Part shown: positions 40,903 to 53,626 of the stretch, piece after piece | Layout of the letters: each line of letters begins with the position of its first letter | How positions within the stretch are numbered: position 1 is the stretch's first letter | Assembly (NCBI RefSeq): GCF_003697845.1 | Contig: NZ_RDQE01000010.1 | Coordinates: 62,001 to 126,000 of the forward strand | Direction: 5' to 3' | DNA: 64,000 bases | Source: Halobellus captivus | GTDB taxonomy: Archaea > Halobacteriota > Halobacteria > Halobacteriales > Haloferacaceae | Translations under genes and position numbers: made by a program | The notes under the pieces: generated by a model | What the model saw: the letters and a program-made list of their open reading frames with translations, nothing else | What the model was told of the DNA's origin: nothing | The model's database searches: none

Positions 40903-42351
40903 TCAGTAGTTGTCGTACACGGTCCGCTCGATCGTGTAGAACTCGAGGCCCTCGTCGCCCTGCTCGCGCCACGTCTCCGAGGAGGACCGTTTGACGCCGC
41001 CGAACGGGACGTGGAGTTCGACGCCGGTCGTCTTCTCGTTTATCTTCACGACGCCGGCCTCGATCTCGTCGACGAACCGATTGGCCTCGGTGTGGTCGTC
41101 GGTGACCACGCTGGCGGAGAGGCCGTAGTCGACCCCGTTCGCAACGTCGATCGCCTCCTCGAAATCCGTCACCTCGATGACCGCGATCACCGGACCGAAC
41201 ACCTCCTCCTGGGCGATCCGCATGTCGGAGGAGACGTCGGTGAAGACGGTCGGTTCCACGAAATGGCCGGTCTCGACCGCGTCGCCGTCGGGGACGCCTC
41301 CGCCCGCGACGAGCGTCGCGCCCTCGTCGACGGCCACGTCAACGTACTCCAGCGTGGACTCCAGCTCCGCGGCGCTGACCTGCGGGCCCATCTCGTGGTC
41401 GCCGCCCGGGCCGACGTCGATCGACTCGGCCCGGCTCACCAACTCGTCGACGAAGTCGTCCGTGACGTCCTCGTGGACGATCGCGCGCGAGCAGGCCGTA
41501 CACGACTGTCCGGTCGTGCCGAATCCGCCGCCGGCGACGATCTCGGCGGCCTCCGCGGGGTCGGCGGACGCCGTCACGACCGTCGGGTTCTTGCCGCCGA
41601 GTTCGGTCTGGACCCGCTTGCCGGCCGCCGTCGCCTGTCGGTACACCGCCTCGCCGACGCTGCTGCTGCCGGTGAAGGAAACGGCGTCCACCGCGTCGTG
41701 TTCGACGAGTTCGTCGCCGAGCACGCTCCCGGGACCGGTGACGACGTTCAACACGCCGTCGGGGAGGCCCGCCTCGTCGAGCGCCTCGGTGACGGCGAGC
41801 GCGACCCCGGGCGCGAGCGACGCCGGCTTGAGGACGGCCGCGTTGCCGGCCGCGAGGGCAGGGGCAAGCTTCCACGCCGGGATCGCGATCGGATAGTTCC
41901 ACGGCGTGATGAGCGCCGCGACGCCGACGGGCTCCTCCCGGGTGTAGAGGTTCACGTCGCGGCCGCTCGACGCCTTTCGGGTCCCGCCCAGGTCGGCCGC
42001 CTTCGAGCCGAAGTAGTGGAAGATGTCGATCGCCCTCTGTACCTCCCCGGCCGCCTCCGGACGCGCCTTCCCCTCCTCCGCGATGAGCCGGTCAGTGAGG
42101 GCCTCCTTGCGTCGGCCGAGGGTCGTCGCGGCCTCCCGGAGGATCCGCCCGCGTTCGGGGCCGGGGGTGTCCGCCCAGTCGGTCTGTGCGGCAGCGGCCG
42201 CCTCGACCGCCTCCACGGCATCCGTCACACCGGACTGCTGGTACTCGGCGACGATTTCGTCCGGCTCCGCCGGGTTTCGGACAGCGATCGTCTCGCCCGT
42301 TGACGCCGCGACCCACTCCCCATCGATGTAGTTTCGACTGGTTTCCGACAT
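40903..42351 (-). CDS. Aldehyde dehydrogenase, candidate 2-oxoglutarate semialdehyde dehydrogenase
   Basis: The 482-residue enzyme starts with the ATG at 42351. It shows P-W-N-Y-P near residue 153, F-T-G-S-S-S-V-G near 230, E-L-G-G-K-N-P near 252, the catalytic Cys in G-Q-S-C-T near 287, and E-E-V-F-G-P near 385. It belongs to the NAD(P)+-dependent ALDH superfamily. In oxidative pentose and uronate pathways a paralogue of this type oxidises 2-oxoglutarate semialdehyde to 2-oxoglutarate. The neighbours (uronate dehydrogenase-like, DapA-like and enolase-like genes) support that here; the specific substrate is inference. Confidence 0.85.
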   Translation of the reverse strand: MSETSRNYIDGEWVAASTGETIAVRNPAEPDEIVAEYQQSGVTDAVEAVEAAAAAQTDWADTPGPERGRILREAATTLGRRKEALTDRLIAEEGKARPEAAGEVQRAIDIFHYFGSKAADLGGTRKASSGRDVNLYTREEPVGVAALITPWNYPIAIPAWKLAPALAAGNAAVLKPASLAPGVALAVTEALDEAGLPDGVLNVVTGPGSVLGDELVEHDAVDAVSFTGSSSVGEAVYRQATAAGKRVQTELGGKNPTVVTASADPAEAAEIVAGGGFGTTGQSCTACSRAIVHEDVTDDFVDELVSRAESIDVGPGGDHEMGPQVSAAELESTLEYVDVAVDEGATLVAGGGVPDGDAVETGHFVEPTVFTDVSSDMRIAQEEVFGPVIAVIEVTDFEEAIDVANGVDYGLSASVVTDDHTEANRFVDEIEAGVVKINEKTTGVELHVPFGGVKRSSSETWREQGDEGLEFYTIERTVYDNY

Positions 42352-42489
42352 GGATACGAACATCTGGGCGACCCACATGGGTCTTTCGATAGTGGATCCG
42401 ACGACACGCGATCCGATATCTCGAACGGAGCCTTCGTCCCGATGGGACCGTTTTCTCGGTCAGCCCGGAAGGGCGGGTACGTCCTTCGA

Positions 42490-43329
42490 TCAGTTCGGCG
42501 GCTCCCCCCACTCTTCCCCGTTGTCCTGCGGATCGTAGCCGAGGTCATGTCGGGCGTTCTCGATGGAGAACCATCGCCGGTCGTTGTCGCTGACTCCGTT
42601 GAAGACGCCGTATTCCACATCCTCGTCCCGTAGACAACACTCCACCTGGTGGGCGAAGTCGTGCCGGGACTGCCACATCGCCTTCATCCGCCGTACCTGA
42701 CGGTCGTACTCCTCGCTGCCCCGTTCGAGCTCTCCCTCGTCGACTGCCCGCTCCGCGTCTCCGTACGGGTGGTCGTACTCGGGATGTCTCACGGAACAGA
42801 TTCGCACCATGTAACAGTGTTTCGGGTACTCGTACCGTTCGACGTATTGACGGCAGAGGGCCTCGCCGAAGACCTTGCTCGTCCCGTAGTAGGAATCGGG
42901 CCGAACGGGGTCCTCGTGAGACAGCGCTAGGTCGAAGTCCAGTTCGTACAGTTCGGGAGCGAACTCCTCCTCGTACATTCCCATGACATGGTTCGTCGAC
43001 CCGAACACGACCGAGTCGACCTCAGCTTCCCTGGCGGCTTCGAGGACGTTGTACGTTCCGACGACGTTCGGCTCGAGGATGTCGTCCCACGTCCCGTCGG
43101 TATACGGATAAGCCGCGAGGTGAATGACCGCGTCGACGTCCTCGAACGCGGGACGGATCGCCTCGAAGTCGCCCACATCGGCCACGACCGTCTCGTACTG
43201 CCCGTAGGGGTGGTCCGCATCCCGGTCCGATCTGTTCAGATAGGTGAACTCGTACTCCGGCTCGTCGTGTAGATTATCGATTATCGCCGTGCCGACACGC
43301 CCGTACGGACCGGTAACTAGCACGTCCAT
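42490..43329 (-). CDS. Uronate-dehydrogenase-like SDR (epimerase family)
   Basis: The 279-residue protein has G7-x-x-G10-x-x-G13 for NAD, S111 in G-S-T-N-H, and the catalytic Y148-x3-K152 in a R-P-D-S-Y-Y-G-T-S-K-V-F-G-E context. This is the signature of uronate dehydrogenase, which turns D-galacturonate or D-glucuronate into the aldarolactone. The haloarchaeal NAD-dependent glucose-6-phosphate dehydrogenase (Azf) is very close in sequence and cannot be excluded. The catabolic neighbours favour uronate. A TATA-like element (43353-43360 on the minus strand) is 27 bases before the ATG, so the gene has its own leaderless promoter. Confidence 0.82.
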   Translation of the reverse strand: MDVLVTGPYGRVGTAIIDNLHDEPEYEFTYLNRSDRDADHPYGQYETVVADVGDFEAIRPAFEDVDAVIHLAAYPYTDGTWDDILEPNVVGTYNVLEAAREAEVDSVVFGSTNHVMGMYEEEFAPELYELDFDLALSHEDPVRPDSYYGTSKVFGEALCRQYVERYEYPKHCYMVRICSVRHPEYDHPYGDAERAVDEGELERGSEEYDRQVRRMKAMWQSRHDFAHQVECCLRDEDVEYGVFNGVSDNDRRWFSIENARHDLGYDPQDNGEEWGEPPN

Positions 43330-43352
43330 GCTCCGAGTGGATCGGCCACCAG

Positions 43353-43360
43353 TAAATAGA
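43353..43360 (-). promoter_or_regulatory. TATA element for the uronate dehydrogenase-like gene
   Basis: On the minus strand tctattta is centred 27 bases before the ATG (43329). It fits leaderless initiation. Confidence 0.6.
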
Positions 43361-43812
43361 TTCTGGCGAGCGGCAGCGTCACGGGGCGAATGCCGTTCAG
43401 GGCTTCCGATCGGATGCCCCCGACCGTTCCCCTGCTACGAGGATCGCGGCGATCGGGGGACTCTCTCCGGATCTCGGGAGTCAATACTGACTCGCCGTTC
43501 CCGAAGGGAAAACGGCATGTCGACGACGACGGCCGTTCCGTAGACTTCCGCTCGTGCGAACCCAATCAGAAGCTTCCAGCCACTATCCATCACAGTAGTA
43601 TGAATGTAAAGCTCTACGGTAAATACCGGAAGAACGGCGTGTTCTGTGAGTCGGCGTTCGCGTACCGTACCGTTCGCAAGGCGGGAACGCGTACGGATCC
43701 CGTAGCACACGATGACGCCGGACCGGCCTCGGGCCCGCGCACTCACCCGAACGTCGAGACGGGAGTGGATCGATAAGGTCCTCGATTCGTGGTGATCGTT
43801 CCTCTGGGGCGA

Positions 43813-43820
43813 ACATATAA
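43813..43820 (+). promoter_or_regulatory. TATA element for the iclR gene
   Basis: The sequence acatataa is centred about 29 bases before the ATG at 43846, which indicates a leaderless transcript. Confidence 0.65.
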
Positions 43821-43845
43821 GTACGGATCGGCTGTTGAATAGTAT

Positions 43846-44619
43846 ATGAACGCCGATCCGAACTCCGAAGGGGGCCGAAAGATCCGTTCGGTCGAGATCA
43901 GCCTCAACATCATCGATCGTCTCCAGAACGAGGATCGGTTGACGGTCGGTGAACTGGCGCGGACGCTTGATCACTCGAAGAGCACGATCCACAATCACCT
44001 GTCGACGCTCGAACAGCGACGGATGATCGTGCGCGACGAGACCGGCTACCGACTCAGTCTCCGACTCCTCGACATGGCGAATCGCGTCCGGAGCCAGGTG
44101 GGTAACTACGAAGTGATCAACAAGGAGGTGGAAACGCTGGCCGAGGAGACCGGCGAGATCGCGCAGTTCGGCATCGAGGAGCACGGCATGGTCTCGTACT
44201 TCGAGAAGGAGCGGGGGAACAACTCCGTTGAGACCGCCTCGCGCGTCGGCACCCAACAGCCCATCTACTCGACGTCGCTCGGGAAGACGATCCTCGCGTT
44301 CCTCCCAGCGGATCGCGTTGAGGAGATCGTCGCCGAGGCGTCCTTCGAACCGAAGACCACGCGAACGATCACGTCGTCAGACGAGCTGTACGAGGAGCTC
44401 GAACGGATCCGTGATCAGGGGTATGGCATCGACAACGAGGAGAACATCGAGGGGTTACGGTGTGTCTCGGCGCCCGTGACGAGCGGCGATACGGTACTCG
44501 GGGCCATCAGCCTGACCGGTCCTTCCAGCCGCTTTACACACGATAAGCTCCACGATGAGCTCGCGGACGCAGTCACGCGCGCCGCGAACGTCATCGAGCT
44601 CAACACGAAGTTCTCCTGA
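43846..44619 (+). CDS. IclR-family transcription regulator
   Basis: The 257-residue protein has an N-terminal winged helix (R-S-V-E-I-S-L-N-I-I-D-R-L, L-A-R-T-L-D-H-S-K-S-T-I-H-N-H-L). The effector-binding domain follows (about 85-255: T-S-L-G-K-T-I-L-A-F near residue 142, E-N-I-E-G-L-R-C-V-S near 202, A-I-S-L-T-G-P-S near 222). Haloarchaeal IclR proteins control sugar and sugar-acid operons. It is the only regulator in the island and probably senses the imported sugar acid or a pathway intermediate. Confidence 0.9.
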   Translation: MNADPNSEGGRKIRSVEISLNIIDRLQNEDRLTVGELARTLDHSKSTIHNHLSTLEQRRMIVRDETGYRLSLRLLDMANRVRSQVGNYEVINKEVETLAEETGEIAQFGIEEHGMVSYFEKERGNNSVETASRVGTQQPIYSTSLGKTILAFLPADRVEEIVAEASFEPKTTRTITSSDELYEELERIRDQGYGIDNEENIEGLRCVSAPVTSGDTVLGAISLTGPSSRFTHDKLHDELADAVTRAANVIELNTKFS

Positions 44620-44801
44620 TCGGAACCGGAGTCCGGCTCGTTTCTCGCTGGAGGGTTGCGAGCAGCCGTTTCCCGCTGATCAAAGACGCCGCGATCAGGA
44701 CAGAGCCGACTCCATGCTACCGCGGAGGATAACCCGTCCCTCGAAATCACGGAGAACCACGTAGATCTCTAAGAAGCGACGCACCCGCGCTCGACGGTCG
44801 G

Positions 44802-45755
44802 TTACGCGGTGGCCTGCGTGTCGATCAGGTCGCCGATCTCCTCATCCAGCTCGCGATATAGCGTCTCCGCGCGCTCCTCCTCGGCCGGCGAGAGCGGCTG
44901 TAGCGGTTCCCGAACGCCGCCTCCGTGGAGGCCAGCGAGTTCGAGACCCTTCTTGACGACCGGAATGCTCACCGCAGCGGGGATGTCGTTTCTCGTTCCT
45001 TTCTCGCCGCGCAGTTGCTGATACGGCAGGCAAACGTTGCGGAGCCGTCGCGCTCGAGACCAGTCCTCCCGCGAGAGGGCATCGAACAGTTCGAGACCGA
45101 CTTCCGGCCGGAAGTTGCTCACGCCCGCCGAGAACCCCTCGGCACCTTCCACCCACGTCGCGGGTGCCAACGGTTCCGCGAGCCCGTTCACCCAGACGAC
45201 GTCGTTCGGACCGGCCTCAACGGCCGCGCCGAGTTTCGCCGTATCGGTTAGCGCGTACTTGATGCCGACGATCTCGTCGATGTCGGCCAGATCGGCGAGG
45301 TACTCAACGGACGGTTCGAACCCCTTGACGTACGGAACGAGGGGGCGATCCGCCGCCTCGCCGAGCGCCGAGTAGTACTCCAGGAGTCCCCGTTCGTGGA
45401 GGTACGTGTGGTGGGGCGGCATGATCATCATTGCGTCCACGCCGACCTCCTCGTACGCCTCCATCAGTTCGATGGCGTCGTCCGTGCCTCCGCCGACGCC
45501 GGCGAGCACGCAGGCGTCCGACGGCAACGCCGAAACGCTCGTTTCCGCGATATCGACCCGTTCGGACCGCGACAGCGAGTGGTACTCGCTGATGTTGGCG
45601 ACCGAAAGGAACGAATCGATGCCCTGCTGGTGGAGCGAACGGGCGTTGGATCGTATCTTGCCGTGCTCGACACGGGAATCGTCGTCGAACGGCGTCAGGA
45701 GGCCAGCGGAAACACCACGGAGTCTCGACTGTATTTCGTCCTCGTTCAGAGGCAT
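44802..45755 (-). CDS. DapA/NAL-superfamily lyase or dehydratase, KdgD-like
   Basis: The 317-residue TIM barrel has the Schiff-base lysine K166 in G-I-K-Y-A-L-T-D and Y142 in P-Y-V-K-G. The usual G-T-T-G-E substrate motif is replaced by N-I-S-E-Y-H near residue 55. This argues against classical dihydrodipicolinate synthase. Family members include 5-dehydro-4-deoxyglucarate dehydratase (KdgD, giving 2-oxoglutarate semialdehyde) and 2-keto-3-deoxy sugar-acid aldolases. The island contains enzymes for the step before and the step after KdgD, so that role is favoured. A TATA (45779-45786, minus strand) lies 27 bases before the start. Confidence 0.8.
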   Translation of the reverse strand: MPLNEDEIQSRLRGVSAGLLTPFDDDSRVEHGKIRSNARSLHQQGIDSFLSVANISEYHSLSRSERVDIAETSVSALPSDACVLAGVGGGTDDAIELMEAYEEVGVDAMMIMPPHHTYLHERGLLEYYSALGEAADRPLVPYVKGFEPSVEYLADLADIDEIVGIKYALTDTAKLGAAVEAGPNDVVWVNGLAEPLAPATWVEGAEGFSAGVSNFRPEVGLELFDALSREDWSRARRLRNVCLPYQQLRGEKGTRNDIPAAVSIPVVKKGLELAGLHGGGVREPLQPLSPAEEERAETLYRELDEEIGDLIDTQATA

Positions 45756-45778
45756 GAAACCAGTTTTCAGAGTGACGA

Positions 45779-45786
45779 ATAATAAG
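45779..45786 (-). promoter_or_regulatory. TATA element for the DapA-family gene
   Basis: Minus-strand cttattat is centred about 27 bases before the ATG at 45755, a leaderless arrangement. Confidence 0.6.
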
Positions 45787-45921
45787 CTCTTTGTTCAGGG
45801 TGGAACCCGTCCGTTTCGAACCGAACCGGCACGCGGGTCCCGAAGGGGTCCGGGATGGCACCGCGTTGCGGACACAAGAGCGGAGCGATCGCCGCTTTGG
45901 GGACCGAGTCCGAGACCGACG

Positions 45922-47496
45922 CTATGGCCGTGGCCTCTCCAATCCAAGCCTGTCGAACTGGTTCGCCGGGGCGTCCAGCTCCGTGAGGGCATCGACGAGG
46001 AGGGACCGCATCTCCTCGGACCGTTCCGGCTCCCGTCCCGCGAGGTTCCGTCGTTGCCATGGGTCCGACTCGACGTCATACAGGAGAGGTTCCTCGTGAC
46101 GCCCGTGTGACGGCCCCTCGAACTTCCAAACCGGACAGTCGGTGTACGGAAGGAACCGACCCGATTCCGCGTCGTGTTTCGGCCTCGTCGGCGTGAACCA
46201 TCCTACGGAATCCATCATCGTCGTCGAATAGCAGTGGGTCGACGTCGATTCGTCACATGGCCGGTGATACGTGTACGTTCCGTCGGTAACGTTGACGGAC
46301 GAGCCCCAGTATCCGTAGAGTGCCCACTCCCGGTGGTCGTCGACTTCGTCCGTCAACAGCGGGAGGAGGCTCCGGCTGTGAGGTGCCCCATCGACCTCGA
46401 GACCGAGAACGTCCGCCATCGTGGCGAAGAGGTCCACGGCGGCCGTGAGCTCGTCGATGCGGTCCCCCATGCGGGAGCTCCCCGGATGCCAGATCATCAA
46501 CGGCGTTCGTGCGAGTTCGTTCCGAACGGGAGCCTCGAACGGCTTCCCGACGTACCCGTTCTCGCCCAGATAGAAGCCGTGATCCGAGGTGAGTATCACC
46601 GCCGTCTTCTCCCAGAGATTCCGGTCGTCGAGCGTTCGAAGGACGGTCCCAAACCATTCGTCGACCATCGTCAGCTCGGCGGCGTACTGGGACTCAATGA
46701 ACGCGAGCTCCCGATCCGAGAGTTCGCTCTGACCCTCGTCGGTTCGGCCGTAGTACGGCCAGATCGGGAGCTCCGGGTCCGTCGGGTCCTCGTCGGTGTA
46801 CATCGAGGCATACGGTTCGGGAACGTGGAACGGTTCGTGTACGTCGAAGCTATCCACGTAACAGAACCAGTCGGACCACTCCTCATTCGTCTCCAACCAA
46901 TTCGCCGCGCGCGAGAACACCTTCGGGGCGAAGAAGTCGGACTCGACGTCGAACCCCGCCGCGTTACGGGCGTACGCTGCCCGGTTCATGAAGCGTAGGT
47001 CGTCGGGCTCGTCGCTCGCCGTACCCGCGTCGAGGTTGAGGTCGTCCGACGCTCCGGAGCCGTCCCTTCGGAGCTGGGAAAGCAACTCACCGTCCGGATC
47101 CCGGGGAGACGTTCTCCACCGGTCGTACTCCTGTCCCCGAATGAACTCGACCCCGTTGAAGCTCTCGTGGTATCCGTTGCTCCCGTGTTGAAAGTAATGG
47201 AAGTGGTCGGTGACGAGCTGGGTGAGAACGTTCTGACTCCGTACGACCTCCGGTAACACGGTATCGAACGGTTCGATCGGGCCCCATGGACGCCAGAGGA
47301 ACTCTTGGGTTCCGGTCAGCCATTCACGACGGGCGGGCATGCACGGGAGGCTTCCCGCGTAGTGGTTATCAAAGACTGCTGCCCGGTCCGCGAACTCGTC
47401 CAGGTTCGGTGTCTCGATGTCGATCGGTGAATTCGGTCGATACGATCTCAGAAAGTGTCGGTTCAGGCTGTCGATGGAAATGAACAGGACGTTCAT
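45922..47496 (-). CDS. Sulfatase (formylglycine type), cytoplasmic-looking
   Basis: The 524-residue protein starts at the ATG at 47496, overlapping the previous stop by one base. It has the metal ligand D9 in F-I-S-I-D-S, the sulfatase core C52-M-P-A-R56 (cysteine for formylglycine modification), and a later T-S-D-H-G-F-Y-L-G-E segment holding the metal-binding Asp/His. No signal peptide or lipobox is present, so it likely acts inside the cell on an imported sulfated sugar. It needs a formylglycine-generating system, which is not in this window. A phosphonate monoester hydrolase or choline sulfatase is the alternative family assignment. Confidence 0.87.
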   Translation of the reverse strand: MNVLFISIDSLNRHFLRSYRPNSPIDIETPNLDEFADRAAVFDNHYAGSLPCMPARREWLTGTQEFLWRPWGPIEPFDTVLPEVVRSQNVLTQLVTDHFHYFQHGSNGYHESFNGVEFIRGQEYDRWRTSPRDPDGELLSQLRRDGSGASDDLNLDAGTASDEPDDLRFMNRAAYARNAAGFDVESDFFAPKVFSRAANWLETNEEWSDWFCYVDSFDVHEPFHVPEPYASMYTDEDPTDPELPIWPYYGRTDEGQSELSDRELAFIESQYAAELTMVDEWFGTVLRTLDDRNLWEKTAVILTSDHGFYLGENGYVGKPFEAPVRNELARTPLMIWHPGSSRMGDRIDELTAAVDLFATMADVLGLEVDGAPHSRSLLPLLTDEVDDHREWALYGYWGSSVNVTDGTYTYHRPCDESTSTHCYSTTMMDSVGWFTPTRPKHDAESGRFLPYTDCPVWKFEGPSHGRHEEPLLYDVESDPWQRRNLAGREPERSEEMRSLLVDALTELDAPANQFDRLGLERPRP

Positions 47497-47732
47497 CAGG
47501 ATCGAGTTTCGCTCCGTAGTTCGGCTGGCAGCGTCTCCCGGGGACGATCGACGTCGAACTCGACTTTGGTGCCGTCCACGACGACGAATCCCGTCTCGTA
47601 ACACTCGCCACAGCGTTGAAGACAGAGCGTCTCGCGGAGGGAGTAACGGTCACAGTCGAGTACCTCGCGTAGGTCTTCGGGCGCGTTTCGTTTGCAACAC
47701 TGTACGACGCCGACCGATGGATCCGTGGACAT
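47496..47732 (-). CDS. DUF1450-like cysteine-rich small protein
   Basis: The 78-residue protein has cysteines at 12, 13, 27, 37, 41 and 44 (Q-C-C-K-R-N and C-L-Q-R-C-G-E-C-Y-E-T-G). This resembles DUF1450/YuzB-type small proteins, some of which look like thioredoxin-like ferredoxins. A metal or iron-sulfur site is possible but not shown. Its stop overlaps the sulfatase start by one base, so the two are translated together. A role in sulfatase use or maturation is a speculation based on that coupling. A TATA (47759-47766, minus strand) precedes the start. Confidence 0.72.
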   Translation of the reverse strand: MSTDPSVGVVQCCKRNAPEDLREVLDCDRYSLRETLCLQRCGECYETGFVVVDGTKVEFDVDRPRETLPAELRSETRS

Positions 47733-47758
47733 CGTCCCGGTATGGTCGATGGGTATCG

Positions 47759-47766
47759 AATTAAAG
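47759..47766 (-). promoter_or_regulatory. TATA element for the DUF1450-sulfatase pair
   Basis: Minus-strand ctttaatt is centred about 30 bases before the ATG at 47732. Confidence 0.55.
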
Positions 47767-47900
47767 TTTCCCCGGATCTCACGGGGAGTTTACTGGGGAA
47801 GGAAGCGTCCACACGGTCACCCCGTAGCCGGCGTGTCCCTCCCGAACACCATCTCACGGCGGGGTTGGCATCCATAGTCGAACACAACGTTAATTAATGA

Positions 47901-47908
47901 TGAATAAT
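47901..47908 (+). promoter_or_regulatory. TATA element for the solute-binding protein gene
   Basis: tgaataat is centred about 26 bases before the ATG at 47930, in an AT-rich spacer between two divergent genes. This supports leaderless initiation at the ATG rather than the upstream GTG at 47918. Confidence 0.6.
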
Positions 47909-47929
47909 ACATGACAAGTGTGGCAGACA

Positions 47930-49285
47930 ATGTCAGATCAAGATAGCGAACCTGACCTGTCGCGTCGACACTATATTACGCTCGCCGGTTCCGCGGGGGC
48001 GCTCTCGGTTGCAGGCTGTACGGGTAACGGTGGAAGTGGCGACGACGGGTCGAGCGGCGACGACGGGTCGAGCGGCGACGACGGTTCCGGCGGTGACGAC
48101 GGAAGCGGCACGACGACGCTCGAACTCCAGCACTGGTGGACCGACGGCGGCGGGGCGGTCGGGATGGAAGCGCTCCAGGAAGGCTTCCAGGAAAAGCACC
48201 CGGACATCGAGATCAACGACAATCCGGTGGCCGGTGGAGGAGGAACGAACCTTCAGGCTGTGATTCGGAACCGAGTTCTAGAGGGGAACCCGCCGAGTAC
48301 ATGGCAGGACTGGCCGGGGGCGAACCTCTCGGATTACGTCGAAGCGGGCGTGCTCAAGGACATCGGGTACATCTTCGAGGGCGACATGGAAGAGAACTAC
48401 CGGGACGGGCCGCTGCTCTCTGCACGGGCGGGGAACGAGGACAATCCCTACGTTGCCGTTCCCTTGAACATTCACCGCGTCAACAACCTCTTCTGGGACA
48501 TCAGCTCGGTCGAAGAGGCGGGAGTCGACATGGGGAGCATCTCCGATCCGAACGAGTACGTGGAGGTGCTCGCCCAGATCGACGACCAGATCGAGACGCC
48601 GGCGCTCTCGTTGTCGATGGCAGCCCCGTGGACCGTGCTCCAGCTCTGGTCTTCGAACCTGATCGGCCTGTACGACGCACAGACGTATCAGGACTTCAGG
48701 GCCGGCGAGGACATCACGTCGGAGGTCGAGGCCGCCCTGGAAGTCACGGCCGACCAGTTCGAGTACGTTACCCCAGACGCGGGATCGGTCGGATCCGACG
48801 CCGCTCGACTCAAGCTCCCGGAGGGGAACGGTGTGATGCTCATGGAGGGCGACTGGGCGGCCGGAAACCTGTTCGCCGCGGACGGGTACGAGTACGACGA
48901 GCACTGGCAGCACATGCCGTATCCGGGGACCGACGGGGTCTACAACATCAACACCGACGGTTTCCCGTACCCCCAACCGAATCCGACGCCCGACGCGACC
49001 GACAAGTGGATGCAGTGGGTCGGAAGCGCGGAAGCGCAGCGTGTCTTCTGTGACCCCAAGGGTGCGATCCCGTGCCGGACCGACGTCGACCTCAGCGAGT
49101 TCAGTCCGCTCATGCAAGAGCAGTTCGAGGACTTCCAGAGCGACACCGGCGTTTTGACACTCGCACACGGGGACGGGGTGTCCCCACAACAGGGAACCTC
49201 CCTGAAGAACGCGATGTCCCGGTTCATGGATAACCGAAACGTCGAGGCCACCGCGGGCGCGCTCATGGACGCGATGACGCTGTAG
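47930..49285 (+). CDS. CUT1-type ABC sugar-binding lipoprotein
   Basis: The 451-residue protein has a Tat-like signal (S-R-R-H-Y-I-T) and a lipobox ending at C30 (S-V-A-G-C), so it is a lipid-anchored outer-face receptor. A G-D-D-G-S-S repeat linker follows (about residues 36-58). The mature part contains L-Q-H-W-W-T-D and V-M-L-M-E-G-D-W-A-A-G segments found in sugar-binding subunits (SBP_bac_1). It delivers a saccharide or sugar acid to the permeases encoded next. The ATG at 47930 was chosen from the TATA position; a GTG at 47918 would add four residues. Confidence 0.91.
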   Translation: MSDQDSEPDLSRRHYITLAGSAGALSVAGCTGNGGSGDDGSSGDDGSSGDDGSGGDDGSGTTTLELQHWWTDGGGAVGMEALQEGFQEKHPDIEINDNPVAGGGGTNLQAVIRNRVLEGNPPSTWQDWPGANLSDYVEAGVLKDIGYIFEGDMEENYRDGPLLSARAGNEDNPYVAVPLNIHRVNNLFWDISSVEEAGVDMGSISDPNEYVEVLAQIDDQIETPALSLSMAAPWTVLQLWSSNLIGLYDAQTYQDFRAGEDITSEVEAALEVTADQFEYVTPDAGSVGSDAARLKLPEGNGVMLMEGDWAAGNLFAADGYEYDEHWQHMPYPGTDGVYNINTDGFPYPQPNPTPDATDKWMQWVGSAEAQRVFCDPKGAIPCRTDVDLSEFSPLMQEQFEDFQSDTGVLTLAHGDGVSPQQGTSLKNAMSRFMDNRNVEATAGALMDAMTL

Positions 49286-49319
49286 GAGTCGTCAGCGACA
49301 GTCAGCAGTCTCCGAAGAA

Positions 49320-49327
49320 TTTTTATC
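49320..49327 (+). promoter_or_regulatory. T-rich element between binding-protein and permease genes
   Basis: tttttatc is centred about 27 bases before the permease ATG at 49351 and follows the binding-protein stop by 35 bases. It may serve both as a T-tract terminator for the abundant binding-protein transcript and as a TATA element for the permeases. Confidence 0.45.
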
Positions 49328-49350
49328 ATGGTCTTTGAATATACCTATCA

Positions 49351-50319
49351 ATGAGTGTGTTAACCAAAATCAGGAACACGATGGAACGGTCGTCGTCGCC
49401 GGACTACCGTTCCGAAAACGACGGCATGAGATCGTATCTGAAGAGCGACTTCTTCCGATCGATGCCGTTCTGGCTCCCACCGACCCTCCTGATGGGACTG
49501 TTCGTGTACGGAGGAATACTCTGGAACTTCGTCCTCTCGCTGACGGACTTCTCGGGGGTCGTCAGGCCCGAATACTCGGTCTCGAACTTCGATTTCGAGA
49601 TGTACTTCCGGATGCTGGAAGACCCGTCCTTCTGGAGCGCGGCGCGGAACACGATCGTGTTGTTGGTGGTGTTCACGCTCGTCTGTCTGGTCGTCGGGCT
49701 CTGTCTCGCCATCATCGTGGACAACCTGTTGAAGGGTCAGGGGGTGTTCCGGACCGTCTTCCTGCTTCCGTTCGCCCTCTCTTTCGTCGTGACCGGCGTG
49801 TTCTGGCAATGGATGTACAACCCCGAGATGGGAACGATCAACACGCTCTTCGATATCGTCGGGATGGGGTTCCTCGGACAGGACTGGCTCGGAGACCCCG
49901 CACTGCGGCTCTGGTCGGTCATGTTCGCGCTGATGTGGCAGTTCGGCGGGTACGCGATGATAATCTATCTGGCCAGCCTCCGGACGATCCCCCAGGAGCA
50001 CTACGAGGCCGCGAAGGTCGACGGAGCGGGCTTCTTCAAGATGTACTGGAAGGTGATCATTCCGCAGCTGAGCTCGGCGTCCGTGAGTATCGCCGTCGTG
50101 TTGATGGTGTTCTCGCTGAAGGCGTTCAGTTGGCTCTACGTCGTGTTCGGGAGCAACCCCGGACCGGCCGCCGACATCCTCGGCGTGATGATGTACAGGG
50201 AGGCGTTCGCCGCGAACCAGTGGGCCTACGGGGCCGCCCTCGGGACCGTGTTGTTCGTGACGACCGTGGTTATCCTCGCCCCGTACCTGCGCTACCAGTA
50301 CAAGCGGGGTGAGCTGTGA
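49351..50319 (+). CDS. ABC sugar transporter permease (MalF/UgpA type)
   Basis: The 322-residue protein has six predicted membrane helices. The EAA loop near residue 225 (H-Y-E-A-A-K-V-D-G-A-G-F) contacts the ATPase. It starts with a soluble segment of about 35 residues. It is the first of two permeases, overlapping the next gene by 4 bases. With the neighbouring genes it forms a carbohydrate-uptake-1 importer. Confidence 0.92.
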   Translation: MSVLTKIRNTMERSSSPDYRSENDGMRSYLKSDFFRSMPFWLPPTLLMGLFVYGGILWNFVLSLTDFSGVVRPEYSVSNFDFEMYFRMLEDPSFWSAARNTIVLLVVFTLVCLVVGLCLAIIVDNLLKGQGVFRTVFLLPFALSFVVTGVFWQWMYNPEMGTINTLFDIVGMGFLGQDWLGDPALRLWSVMFALMWQFGGYAMIIYLASLRTIPQEHYEAAKVDGAGFFKMYWKVIIPQLSSASVSIAVVLMVFSLKAFSWLYVVFGSNPGPAADILGVMMYREAFAANQWAYGAALGTVLFVTTVVILAPYLRYQYKRGEL

Positions 50320-51263
50320 TGATCGGGCTCATCGCCTCGGCTCAGGCGACGACGGGGGACCTACTGACCTCGGTACGGGAGTCGCTCACCCGCGCGAACA
50401 GGAAGTACACCGTCGCGGCGATCCTCGCGGTCCTGCTGGGACTCTTCTGGGTCTCCCCGCTGTGGGGGGGTATCTCGACCGCGTTCAAGACGCAGAGCGC
50501 GTTCATCAACACGATCCCGTTGTCGCCGCCCCCCGCCGGAGAGGTCACGATACAACCCTGGCTACGGGCGTGGGAAACTCTGAGCCCGTCACTGGGTAAC
50601 AGCCTCATCTTCACCCTCCCCGCGATGGTGTTCTCGGGGGTGCTCGGGAGCCTCGCGGCGTACGGGCTGACCATGGTCGACTGGCGCGGACAGGTGGCGG
50701 TGATGGCGACGTTCATCGTCGCGATCTTCCTGCCGAAACAGGGGATCCTCCTGCCGCTCTCGCGCTTCTGGAACGCGGTCGACCTCCAGGGGATACTGAG
50801 CAGTCTGGGGTACTTCTCGCTCCCGTTCGCCCACCAGAGCCACACGACGCTGCTGATCCTGATCATCACGCACACCGCGTACGGGATCGGTATCTGTACG
50901 CTCCTGTTCAGAGGGTATTACCTGACCATCGACCACGACCTCGTTGAGGCGGCACGGATAGACGGGGCGGGCGTCTTCAGCATCTATCGGAACATCATCC
51001 TCCCGCTGTCGTATCCGATGTTCATGGTGGTCTTCATCTTCCAGTTCACGCAGATATACAACGAATTCCTCTACGCGCTCATTCTGGTCGGCGGAAGCGA
51101 CCCCAGCGCGGGTGCGCCGATCACGCTCGCGCTCGCCGAGCTCAACAGTGGGTTCTCACAGAACTGGAACAACCAGATGGCGGGGGCGTTCATCACTGCG
51201 GTCCCGACGCTGATCGTGTACGTCCTGTTCGGAGAACAGTTCGCGAAGGGAGTCAAATACTGA
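50316..51263 (+). CDS. ABC sugar transporter permease (MalG/UgpE type)
   Basis: The 315-residue protein has six predicted helices and the EAA loop in L-V-E-A-A-R-I-D-G-A-G-V near residue 210. GTG at 50316 overlaps the previous stop by 4 bases; ATG at 50319 would overlap by one base and lose one residue. The end (E-Q-F-A-K-G-V-K-Y) is the usual family terminus. It is partner to the preceding permease in the importer. Confidence 0.91.
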   Translation: MMIGLIASAQATTGDLLTSVRESLTRANRKYTVAAILAVLLGLFWVSPLWGGISTAFKTQSAFINTIPLSPPPAGEVTIQPWLRAWETLSPSLGNSLIFTLPAMVFSGVLGSLAAYGLTMVDWRGQVAVMATFIVAIFLPKQGILLPLSRFWNAVDLQGILSSLGYFSLPFAHQSHTTLLILIITHTAYGIGICTLLFRGYYLTIDHDLVEAARIDGAGVFSIYRNIILPLSYPMFMVVFIFQFTQIYNEFLYALILVGGSDPSAGAPITLALAELNSGFSQNWNNQMAGAFITAVPTLIVYVLFGEQFAKGVKY

Positions 51264-51272
51264 GAGACACAT

Positions 51273-52415
51273 ATGGCACAATTAACGTTCGACGACGTAC
51301 GGAAGACGTTTCAGGAGGGGAACAACGAGATCGTCGCGGTCGACGATCTGAACATGGAAGTACGGGACGGCGAGTTTCTCGTCGTCGTCGGTCCCAGCGG
51401 CTGCGGGAAGACCACGACGTTACGGATGGTCGCCGGACTGGAGACGATAACGGAGGGACAGATCGAACTCGACGGACGGTCGATCCGAGGGATGAGCCCA
51501 CAGGACCGCAACATCGCGATGGTGTTCCAGTCCTACGCGCTGTATCCCCACATGACGGTGTTCGACAACATGGCCTTCGGCCTCCGTGAATCGACCGACC
51601 TCTCGGAGGACGAGATCGACGACCTCGTCACCGAAACGAGCGAAATGCTGGACATCAAGGAGCTCCTGAACAGAAAGCCGAGCGAACTCTCCGGCGGACA
51701 ACAACAGCGCGTCGCGCTCGGACGGGCGATCGTCAGGGATCCGGACGCGTTCCTGATGGACGAACCCCTCAGCAACCTCGACGCGAAGCTCCGCGCCGAG
51801 ATGCGGACCGAACTCCAGCGGTTACAAGAGGAGTTCGAGACGACCACGATCTACGTCACCCACGACCAGACGGAGGCGATGACCATGGGTGACCGCATCG
51901 CCATCCTGGATCACGGCGAGTTACAGCAGATCGGGACCCCCATGGAGTGTTACTACGAGCCGGCAAACGAGTTCGTCGCCGGCTTCATCGGGGAGCCGTC
52001 AATGAACTTCCTCCGGGGTACGTCCGACGGTGGCGTTCTCCGAATGGAGGACTTCAGCTACGAACTCTCCCAGTCGACGGTGGAGTCGATCGGGTCCACG
52101 ACCGAGATCACGCTTGGCGTTAGGCCGGAGGACGTTGAGGTCGTTCCCGAGGCGACGCAGACGAACGACGTCGCGGTGGAGGTTGACGTCGTCGAGCCGT
52201 TCGGAAAGGAGAACAACCTGTATCTCAAACCGGAGGGGAGCGACACGGACGACACGATCATCGCGACGGTGGGAGGACGCAAGAGCGTCAACGAGGGCGA
52301 GCGGGTCGGCATGCGGCTCCCCGAGGAACACCTCTACCTGTTCGATCGGAGCGACGGAACCGCCATTCGACACCCGACGGTCGAGGCTGAGGAGATCACT
52401 CCGGTCGCGGAGTAG
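51273..52415 (+). CDS. ABC sugar transporter ATPase (MalK/UgpC type)
   Basis: The 380-residue protein has the Walker A G-P-S-G-C-G-K-T-T near residue 38, the Q-loop in F-Q-S-Y-A-L-Y, signature L-S-G-G-Q-Q-Q-R near 138, Walker B F-L-M-D-E-P near 160 and the switch His in V-T-H-D-Q. A C-terminal TOBE-like regulatory domain (about 240-375) follows, as in MalK-type subunits. It starts 9 bases after the permease. It powers the island's importer. Confidence 0.94.
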   Translation: MAQLTFDDVRKTFQEGNNEIVAVDDLNMEVRDGEFLVVVGPSGCGKTTTLRMVAGLETITEGQIELDGRSIRGMSPQDRNIAMVFQSYALYPHMTVFDNMAFGLRESTDLSEDEIDDLVTETSEMLDIKELLNRKPSELSGGQQQRVALGRAIVRDPDAFLMDEPLSNLDAKLRAEMRTELQRLQEEFETTTIYVTHDQTEAMTMGDRIAILDHGELQQIGTPMECYYEPANEFVAGFIGEPSMNFLRGTSDGGVLRMEDFSYELSQSTVESIGSTTEITLGVRPEDVEVVPEATQTNDVAVEVDVVEPFGKENNLYLKPEGSDTDDTIIATVGGRKSVNEGERVGMRLPEEHLYLFDRSDGTAIRHPTVEAEEITPVAE

Positions 52416-52457
52416 CAGGGACCGACTCCCCGTTTTCCGACCCGATCCGAACTGCGG

Positions 52458-53603
52458 TCAGTCCACCCGGAAGCGTTCGACGGCCGTCTCGTCGATCTCG
52501 ATGCCGAGTCCCGGGGCGTCCGGCACGGAGAGCTCTCCTCCGGTGGGGTCGAACGGCTCCGCGAGCAGCTCGTTGCGAAGCGGGTTCTCGCTTCGGTCGA
52601 ACTCGAACAGGATCGGCCGGGTCGACCGGTCGGAGCGCATCGGGTACGAGGGAACGGTGGCGGCGAACTGGATCGCGGCGGCCAGACCGACGGCGCTGTT
52701 CCACACGTGCGGCCGAATTCGGACGTTGTTCGTCGTGGCGAGCCGCGCGAGATACCGGGCTTCGGCGAAACCGCCGCACCGACCGAGGTTCGGTTGGACG
52801 ACGTCCACCACGTTCTCCCGAACTAGGTCGGTGAACTCGAACCGCCCGTGGTGAGCCTCGCCGGCGGCCAACGGGACGTCGATGGCGTCCCGGAGGCGGC
52901 GATAGCCGTCAACGTCCTCGGGGGGGACGGGCTCTTCGATCCACGTCAGGTCGAACTCCTCTATCGCCCGAATCGACTCGAGCGCGTCCGTCGCCGTGTA
53001 GTTCCCGTTGTAGTCGACCATCAACCGGGCGTCGTCGCCGAGGATCTCCCGGGCCGTTCGAACCCGGTGGACGTCGTCCTCGACTGACCGGCCGATCTTG
53101 ATCTTGGCCGCGGTGAATCCCTCCTCGACGGCCCGTTCCATCGGTTCCGCGGGGTCCTGTCCCCACTCGGTGATGTACATGGTCGACGCGTACGGCGTCA
53201 CCGCGTCGTGCGACTGACCCGAGAGCAGTTCACGGACCGGCTTACCGAGCGCCTTCCCACGGAGGTCCCAGAGCGCCACCTCGACGCCGGTCAACGCCGC
53301 CTGCGTGAACGCCTGTCTGCCGAAGTGGTATCCCCCGATCTCGCCGGTGTAGACGGCGTCGGCGAGTGTCTCGGCGTCCCATGGGTCGAGTCCGACGACC
53401 GCGTCGGCGAAAAACTCCTCGATCAACGTCGCGACCGTTCGTGGGGGCGCGAACGCCTCTCCCCAACCAACGGTCCCGTCGTCGGCGGTGACCTTCACCA
53501 ACGTCGCCGTGCGCGTGTCCGTCACTCCTCGCGTTCCGCCGAAGGCTCGTCCCGACCCGAGCGGATGTTCGAGTGGGATCGGCTCGACTGAGACGACTCG
53601 CAT
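52458..53603 (-). CDS. Enolase-superfamily sugar-acid dehydratase / cycloisomerase (mandelate-racemase group)
   Basis: The start at the ATG at 53603 gives 381 residues. The mandelate-racemase-type active site is seen: K167-x-K169, metal ligands D197, E223 and E249 with the exact 26-residue spacings, and the base H299 in R-P-H-V-W. The Asp that normally partners the His is N272 (V-V-Q-P-N), a notable change. Likely roles are aldarate/aldonate dehydratase or aldarolactone cycloisomerase, fitting the step after uronate dehydrogenase. It diverges from the MBL gene across 140 bases. A TATA (53627-53634, minus strand) supports the start. Confidence 0.86.
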   Translation of the reverse strand: MRVVSVEPIPLEHPLGSGRAFGGTRGVTDTRTATLVKVTADDGTVGWGEAFAPPRTVATLIEEFFADAVVGLDPWDAETLADAVYTGEIGGYHFGRQAFTQAALTGVEVALWDLRGKALGKPVRELLSGQSHDAVTPYASTMYITEWGQDPAEPMERAVEEGFTAAKIKIGRSVEDDVHRVRTAREILGDDARLMVDYNGNYTATDALESIRAIEEFDLTWIEEPVPPEDVDGYRRLRDAIDVPLAAGEAHHGRFEFTDLVRENVVDVVQPNLGRCGGFAEARYLARLATTNNVRIRPHVWNSAVGLAAAIQFAATVPSYPMRSDRSTRPILFEFDRSENPLRNELLAEPFDPTGGELSVPDAPGLGIEIDETAVERFRVD

Positions 53604-53626
53604 ACACGGGAGACGGACGCGCGTTG

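Follow-up and report, generated by a model that had tools for sequence, protein, structure and literature searches.

The window analysed here is a 64,000-nucleotide stretch of the Halobellus captivus genome that carries, on its minus strand, a pair of adjoining genes. The upstream gene (47496..47732) is a small open reading frame (ORF) for a DUF1450-like protein of 78 amino acids with six cysteines, assigned from the reading frame, a DUF1450 match and the alignment of relatives; the downstream gene (45922..47496) encodes a cysteine-type S1 sulfatase of 524 amino acids, assigned from a PF00884 match and its CMPAR motif. As the original prediction had stated, stop and start overlap by one base: base 47496 belongs both to the TGA of the small ORF and to the ATG of the sulfatase, within the sequence TGATG (47494..47498, minus strand). 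A mechanical ORF list placed the sulfatase start at a GTG at 47604, which we rejected in favour of the ATG at 47496 because nearly all relatives begin with MNVL. Among the 30 junctions measured, that of the window included, 20 have a four-base ATGA or GTGA overlap. There is no gap between the two genes and one TATA-like box, TTTAAT (47760..47765, minus strand; a consensus match only), stands 33 bases 5' of the ATG of the small ORF, which makes the single promoter predicted for the pair plausible.

The pair is surrounded by an oxidation cluster for a sugar acid, probably a hexuronate (window 40903-53612), with an IclR regulator and a CUT1-type ABC importer. The cluster includes a 2,5-dioxovalerate dehydrogenase (854 bits, above the equivalog cut-off), an Azf/uronate-dehydrogenase-like SDR, an enolase-superfamily sugar-acid dehydratase and, from family models, a KdgD-like sugar-acid dehydratase/aldolase of the DHDPS superfamily (44802..45755, minus strand), which could belong to a downstream pathway. 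The sugar importer (binding protein, two permeases and ATPase; 47918..52415, plus strand) is divergent from the pair and likely serves in substrate uptake, and we infer that a sulfated sugar or sugar acid would be imported, desulfated and oxidised.

The sulfatase matches PF00884 above the cut-off (1.6e-29) and bears the C/S-x-P-x-R signature in the motif C52-M-P-A-R-R-E-W-L-T-G. The codon of Cys52 lies at 47341..47343 (minus strand; computed from the start at 47496), and this first residue of CMPAR is the one expected to become formylglycine. D9, C52, R56, D305, H306 and K318 are invariant. The enzyme is probably cytoplasmic, since no signal peptide is evident by eye, and its structural model (pLDDT 65) resembles S1 sulfatases, the ulvan sulfatase FA22070 (6hhm) and phosphonate monoester hydrolases. 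It is the sole cysteine-type sulfatase found in its own genome, and the same holds, among the matches listed, for the enzyme of the pair in four other genomes (G062, G089, G099 and G128).

Seven more PF00884 proteins in the H. captivus genome (L010-L016) have no catalytic cysteine and show W-T-[LV]-P-S-H or similar instead. Such proteins could resemble sulfotransferases or represent other enzymes of the alkaline-phosphatase superfamily, and they may be no hydrolases at all; in Halobacterium, sulfatase-like proteins have been examined as sulfotransferases of N-glycans (PMC11980604). In Halostella and its kin, which form one clade, the next gene upstream of the pair is also sulfatase-like and cysteine-less (L196, L202, L204 and L216, in G089, G099, G128 and G062), and in G120 such a gene lies just downstream (L158).

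The small protein of the window matches DUF1450 at 9.4e-6 and 25.8 bits, under the family cut-off of 30.1 bits; seven orthologues scanned singly exceed that cut-off (36-47 bits) and all 27 aligned relatives match the model. DUF1450 was its sole match in the Pfam scan and a hypothetical-protein model (PRK13669.1) its only NCBIfam match, so that neither scan placed it in the FGE or anSME families. In the control genomes the DUF1450 family was matched only in Bacillus subtilis, and a search of viral contigs yielded no relative. All six cysteines of the original prediction are present, of which C13, C37, C41 and C44 alone are invariant across the 27 aligned proteins, together with L38 and G54. Their spacing in the window copy is C-x23-C-x3-C-x2-C, and we take C ... 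C-x3-C-x2-C to be the pattern of the Pfam DUF1450 family at large. A metal or iron-sulfur site in the small protein is plausible, as had been proposed.

The AlphaFold model of the small protein is of moderate confidence (pLDDT 77, pTM 0.57) and places the elements in the order strand-helix-strand-helix-strand-strand-helix. Its top structural matches are mostly thioredoxin-fold chains, at weak scores (VIA Z 4-4.6 over 65-73 residues) and with NuoE [2Fe-2S] subunits among them, and the best Foldseek E-value is 0.7; a thioredoxin-like fold is weakly predicted. A sequence search of the PDB gave no convincing match.

To follow the pair beyond H. captivus, a profile built on six small proteins was run on 392 haloarchaeal genomes of the order. 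All 32 small-protein genes recovered (matches of at least 43 bits; four loci judged from coordinates alone) lie directly upstream of a sulfatase of the CMP[AT]RREW subfamily, in 28 genomes, 16 genera and 9 families. Conversely, the small protein stands beside 32 of the 34 sulfatase genes of this subfamily in the same genomes, those without it being in G364 and G398. A second, named collection, which overlaps the first so that the two counts are not independent, has the partner at 29 of 30 haloarchaeal loci, among them loci in Halorubrum californiense, Salinarchaeum laminariae, Halostella pelagica, Haladaptatus, Halocatena, Haloglomus, Natronomonas, Haloquadratum, Halorhabdus and Saliphagus. 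Profile matches below 27 bits (G121, G268, G339, G388, G332 and G105) were set aside as likely chance; the two inspected (L047 and L048) fall at several scattered places in a 333-residue frame with no sulfatase alongside.

The gene arrangement is therefore not due to chance, and the idea that it might be peculiar to H. captivus, with DUF1450 homologues elsewhere standing next to unrelated genes, does not hold within haloarchaea. The flanking genes differ between loci (ABC importers, GH97, isocitrate-dehydrogenase-like proteins, a MoCo dehydrogenase, other sulfatases), so that only these two genes are conserved together as a unit. They form a real, near-obligate gene pair on which none of the papers searched remarks, and because the linkage is near-absolute and reciprocal across haloarchaeal families, the pair strongly supports the functional partnership put forward in the original prediction.

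The scan that gave the 30 haloarchaeal loci also gave 49 bacterial orthologue loci of the sulfatase, with identities of 57-59% in Chloroflexia and Thermomicrobiales, mostly 46-52% in Bacillota and Paenibacillus, and 32-40% in others. The small protein was found at none of the 49 within the flanking DNA examined, of which little lay upstream at three. In a quick maximum-likelihood tree a branch with an SH-aLRT of 100 separates the haloarchaeal enzymes from all others; Chloroflexia and Thermomicrobiales adjoin this clade and both partnerless haloarchaeal genes are nested inside it. Because of this nesting within a single clade, one gain of the partner and two losses suffice, and the simplest story is a single transfer from bacteria followed by these events, with the root not fixed by the data.

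Partnered and bacterial enzymes also differ at one position of the signature motif. Seven residues after the signature cysteine (C+7), all 28 partnered enzymes have Trp whereas the 14 nearest bacterial ones have Phe, Leu or Met; of the partnerless haloarchaeal enzymes, that of QS_4_69_31 has Phe and that of G364 has Trp. As C+7 is one of 17 discriminating positions, its place within the motif could be chance, and the difference is only suggestive.

As to the known maturases of such enzymes, FGE-family genes are absent from the H. captivus genome (3.59 Mb, 99.6% complete), and nothing in it scores above the anSME cut-off. The best anSME candidate of this genome, at C23, was rejected because it proved to be a radical SAM maturase of the mycofactocin type; such a maturase is encoded at L008 1432-2406 (TIGR03962, above cut-off). 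Among the 28 genomes with the partner, an FGE-family gene is present in 11, in two of these together with an anSME, and neither was found in the other 17, of which 15 are at least 90% complete. The 38 bacterial host genomes tested, which do without the partner, contrast with this: an FGE-family gene occurs in 30 and an anSME above the cut-off in six of the remaining eight, leaving two with neither. With the two partnerless haloarchaea added, this strong contrast has a Fisher p of 4e-6, but it is confounded by domain of life, and some of the PF03781 matches, at 110-190 bits, might not represent genuine FGEs. Neither FGE nor anSME was detected in the partnerless G364. A literature search on haloarchaeal formylglycine found nothing relevant.

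FGE and the small protein are not mutually exclusive. At three loci, in QS_4_62_28, Halorientalis LUM.68 and Halomarina halobia (L229, L230 and L251), small protein, sulfatase and FGE follow one another in this order as a cassette, and the FGE of the QS_4_62_28 cassette matches a solved FGE at 408 bits (3.5e-121) with both cysteines of C-H-R-S-W-C in place. FGE-less haloarchaea, whether or not they have the pair, in turn carry cysteine-type sulfatases of other subfamilies: enzymes of the CSPSR, CSPAR and CLPSR types were seen in genomes with no detected FGE and, where tested, no anSME (L227, L226, L210, L211, L220, L178, L190, L186 and L217, in genomes G034, G016, G060, G120, G319, G267, G364 and G367), and the small-protein profile found no partner beside these other CxPxR sulfatases.

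The reading that we favour, at a probability of roughly 0.5, is that haloarchaea use the small protein as an obligate accessory of this one subfamily of cytoplasmic cysteine-type sulfatases and of no other enzyme. It would be translated just ahead of the sulfatase from one mRNA and would work on the enzyme while it folds or afterwards, with the active-site cysteine, C52, as the most likely site of action; its four conserved cysteines would form a metal or iron-sulfur site, or would exchange thiols within a thioredoxin-like fold, and the outcome would be that conversion of C52 to formylglycine is supported or that the thiol is kept usable. That the two proteins touch, that the small one acts at C52 or binds a metal, and any chemistry are inferred. 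The data are compatible with the role proposed for it in maturation or redox protection of the cysteine, and the four invariant cysteines, the thioredoxin-like prediction, the 17 of 28 partner genomes with neither maturase and the FGE within the cassettes partly favour that role, while the lack of a partner at bacterial orthologues speaks against it. A simple or general replacement of FGE by the small protein is not supported, because it adjoins FGE in the three cassettes and because partnerless cysteine-type sulfatases exist in FGE-less haloarchaea. Against the accessory role as such count the bacterial orthologues of 46-59% identity, which presumably work alone, the two partnerless haloarchaeal genes (one of them, in G364, in a genome that likewise has no detected maturase), the other CxPxR sulfatases of FGE-less haloarchaea, beside which the profile detected no such partner, and a fold model of moderate confidence whose Foldseek E-values are no better than 0.7.

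Translational coupling and near 1:1 gene linkage would also fit a folding or stability subunit: the small protein would bind the sulfatase as a chaperone or small subunit in the high-salt cytoplasm and perform no redox chemistry, with zinc or another structural metal held by its cysteines. The partner is absent from the bacterial orthologues, most of which come from non-halophiles, and several sulfatase positions change together with it, as this explanation would have it. However, the halophilic bacterium Salinicola has no partner, although its cytoplasm is not salt-in, and the conserved core of the small protein is a cysteine motif rather than a hydrophobic interface. We regard a purely structural role as rather unlikely.

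We consider it unlikely that the DUF1450-like protein, perhaps with a housekeeping partner or as a specific redox cofactor, constitutes a third maturation system that makes formylglycine at C52 in haloarchaea with neither FGE nor anSME. For E. coli, a third system has already been put forward (Benjdia 2007, as cited in PMC6189696), and the 17 maturase-less partner genomes, the FGE-family protein or anSME in 36 of the 38 partnerless bacterial hosts and the C+7 Trp of all partnered enzymes point in this direction. Yet the small gene is kept beside FGE in the cassettes, cysteine sulfatases do occur partnerless in FGE-less haloarchaea, a protein of 78 amino acids with four conserved cysteines resembles neither known maturase, and the C+7 Trp, just one of 17 discriminating positions, is also found in G364.

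It is very improbable, in our view, that the sulfatase works with an unmodified cysteine whose thiol the small protein keeps or regenerates, for instance by clearing an S-sulfocysteine intermediate or an oxidised cysteine. An unmodified choline sulfatase does turn over many times, but the kcat of unmodified enzymes is low (PMC6189696); the maturase-less partner genomes and the thioredoxin-like prediction would fit, but the FGE within the three cassettes does not, and the chemistry is pure inference. Finally, that the small protein is a ferredoxin-like carrier for the flanking sugar-acid pathway, merely co-transcribed with the sulfatase, is suggested by the oxidative enzymes encoded on either side in the window but is largely refuted by flanks that differ among the loci examined, with the sulfatase as the sole constant.

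DUF1450, for which our literature search found neither a link to sulfatases nor a function in any paper, here gains a specific protein partner, and the pair offers a genetic test in archaea together with genomes that seem to lack the known sulfatase maturases, so that both the function of DUF1450 and sulfatase maturation without FGE or anSME become directly testable. Should the partner turn out to mature or protect the catalytic cysteine, it would bear on how organisms with neither maturase make active cysteine-type sulfatases, and could serve as a small co-expression factor for producing such enzymes.

Among known systems, FGE (SUMF1, PF03781) likewise acts on CxPxR cysteines and is the third member of the haloarchaeal cassettes, but it is unrelated in sequence to the small protein and was not found in the H. 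captivus genome. anSME (TIGR03942) also matures cysteine-type sulfatases and is an iron-sulfur enzyme; unlike the small protein, it is a radical SAM enzyme of 363 model positions. The sulfatase itself shares its fold and CxPxR active site with S1 sulfatases and phosphonate monoester hydrolases (4uph, 2vqr, 6hhm), albeit at a low identity of 15-21%. Thioredoxin-like [2Fe-2S] ferredoxins (PF01257, NuoE) are similar to the small protein in predicted fold and in a C-x3-C followed by a VVDG-type strand; they differ in having an N-terminal cysteine pair where the small protein has a single cysteine, the small protein has an extra cysteine two residues on, and no match reached a usable E-value (none for the window copy, and weak ones for two of the 27 relatives, at best 0.072). 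The small protein also resembles DUF1450 (PF07293, the B. subtilis YuzB family), under whose cut-off the window copy scores but with which it shares its length, its N-terminal cysteine and the C-x3-C-x2-C motif.
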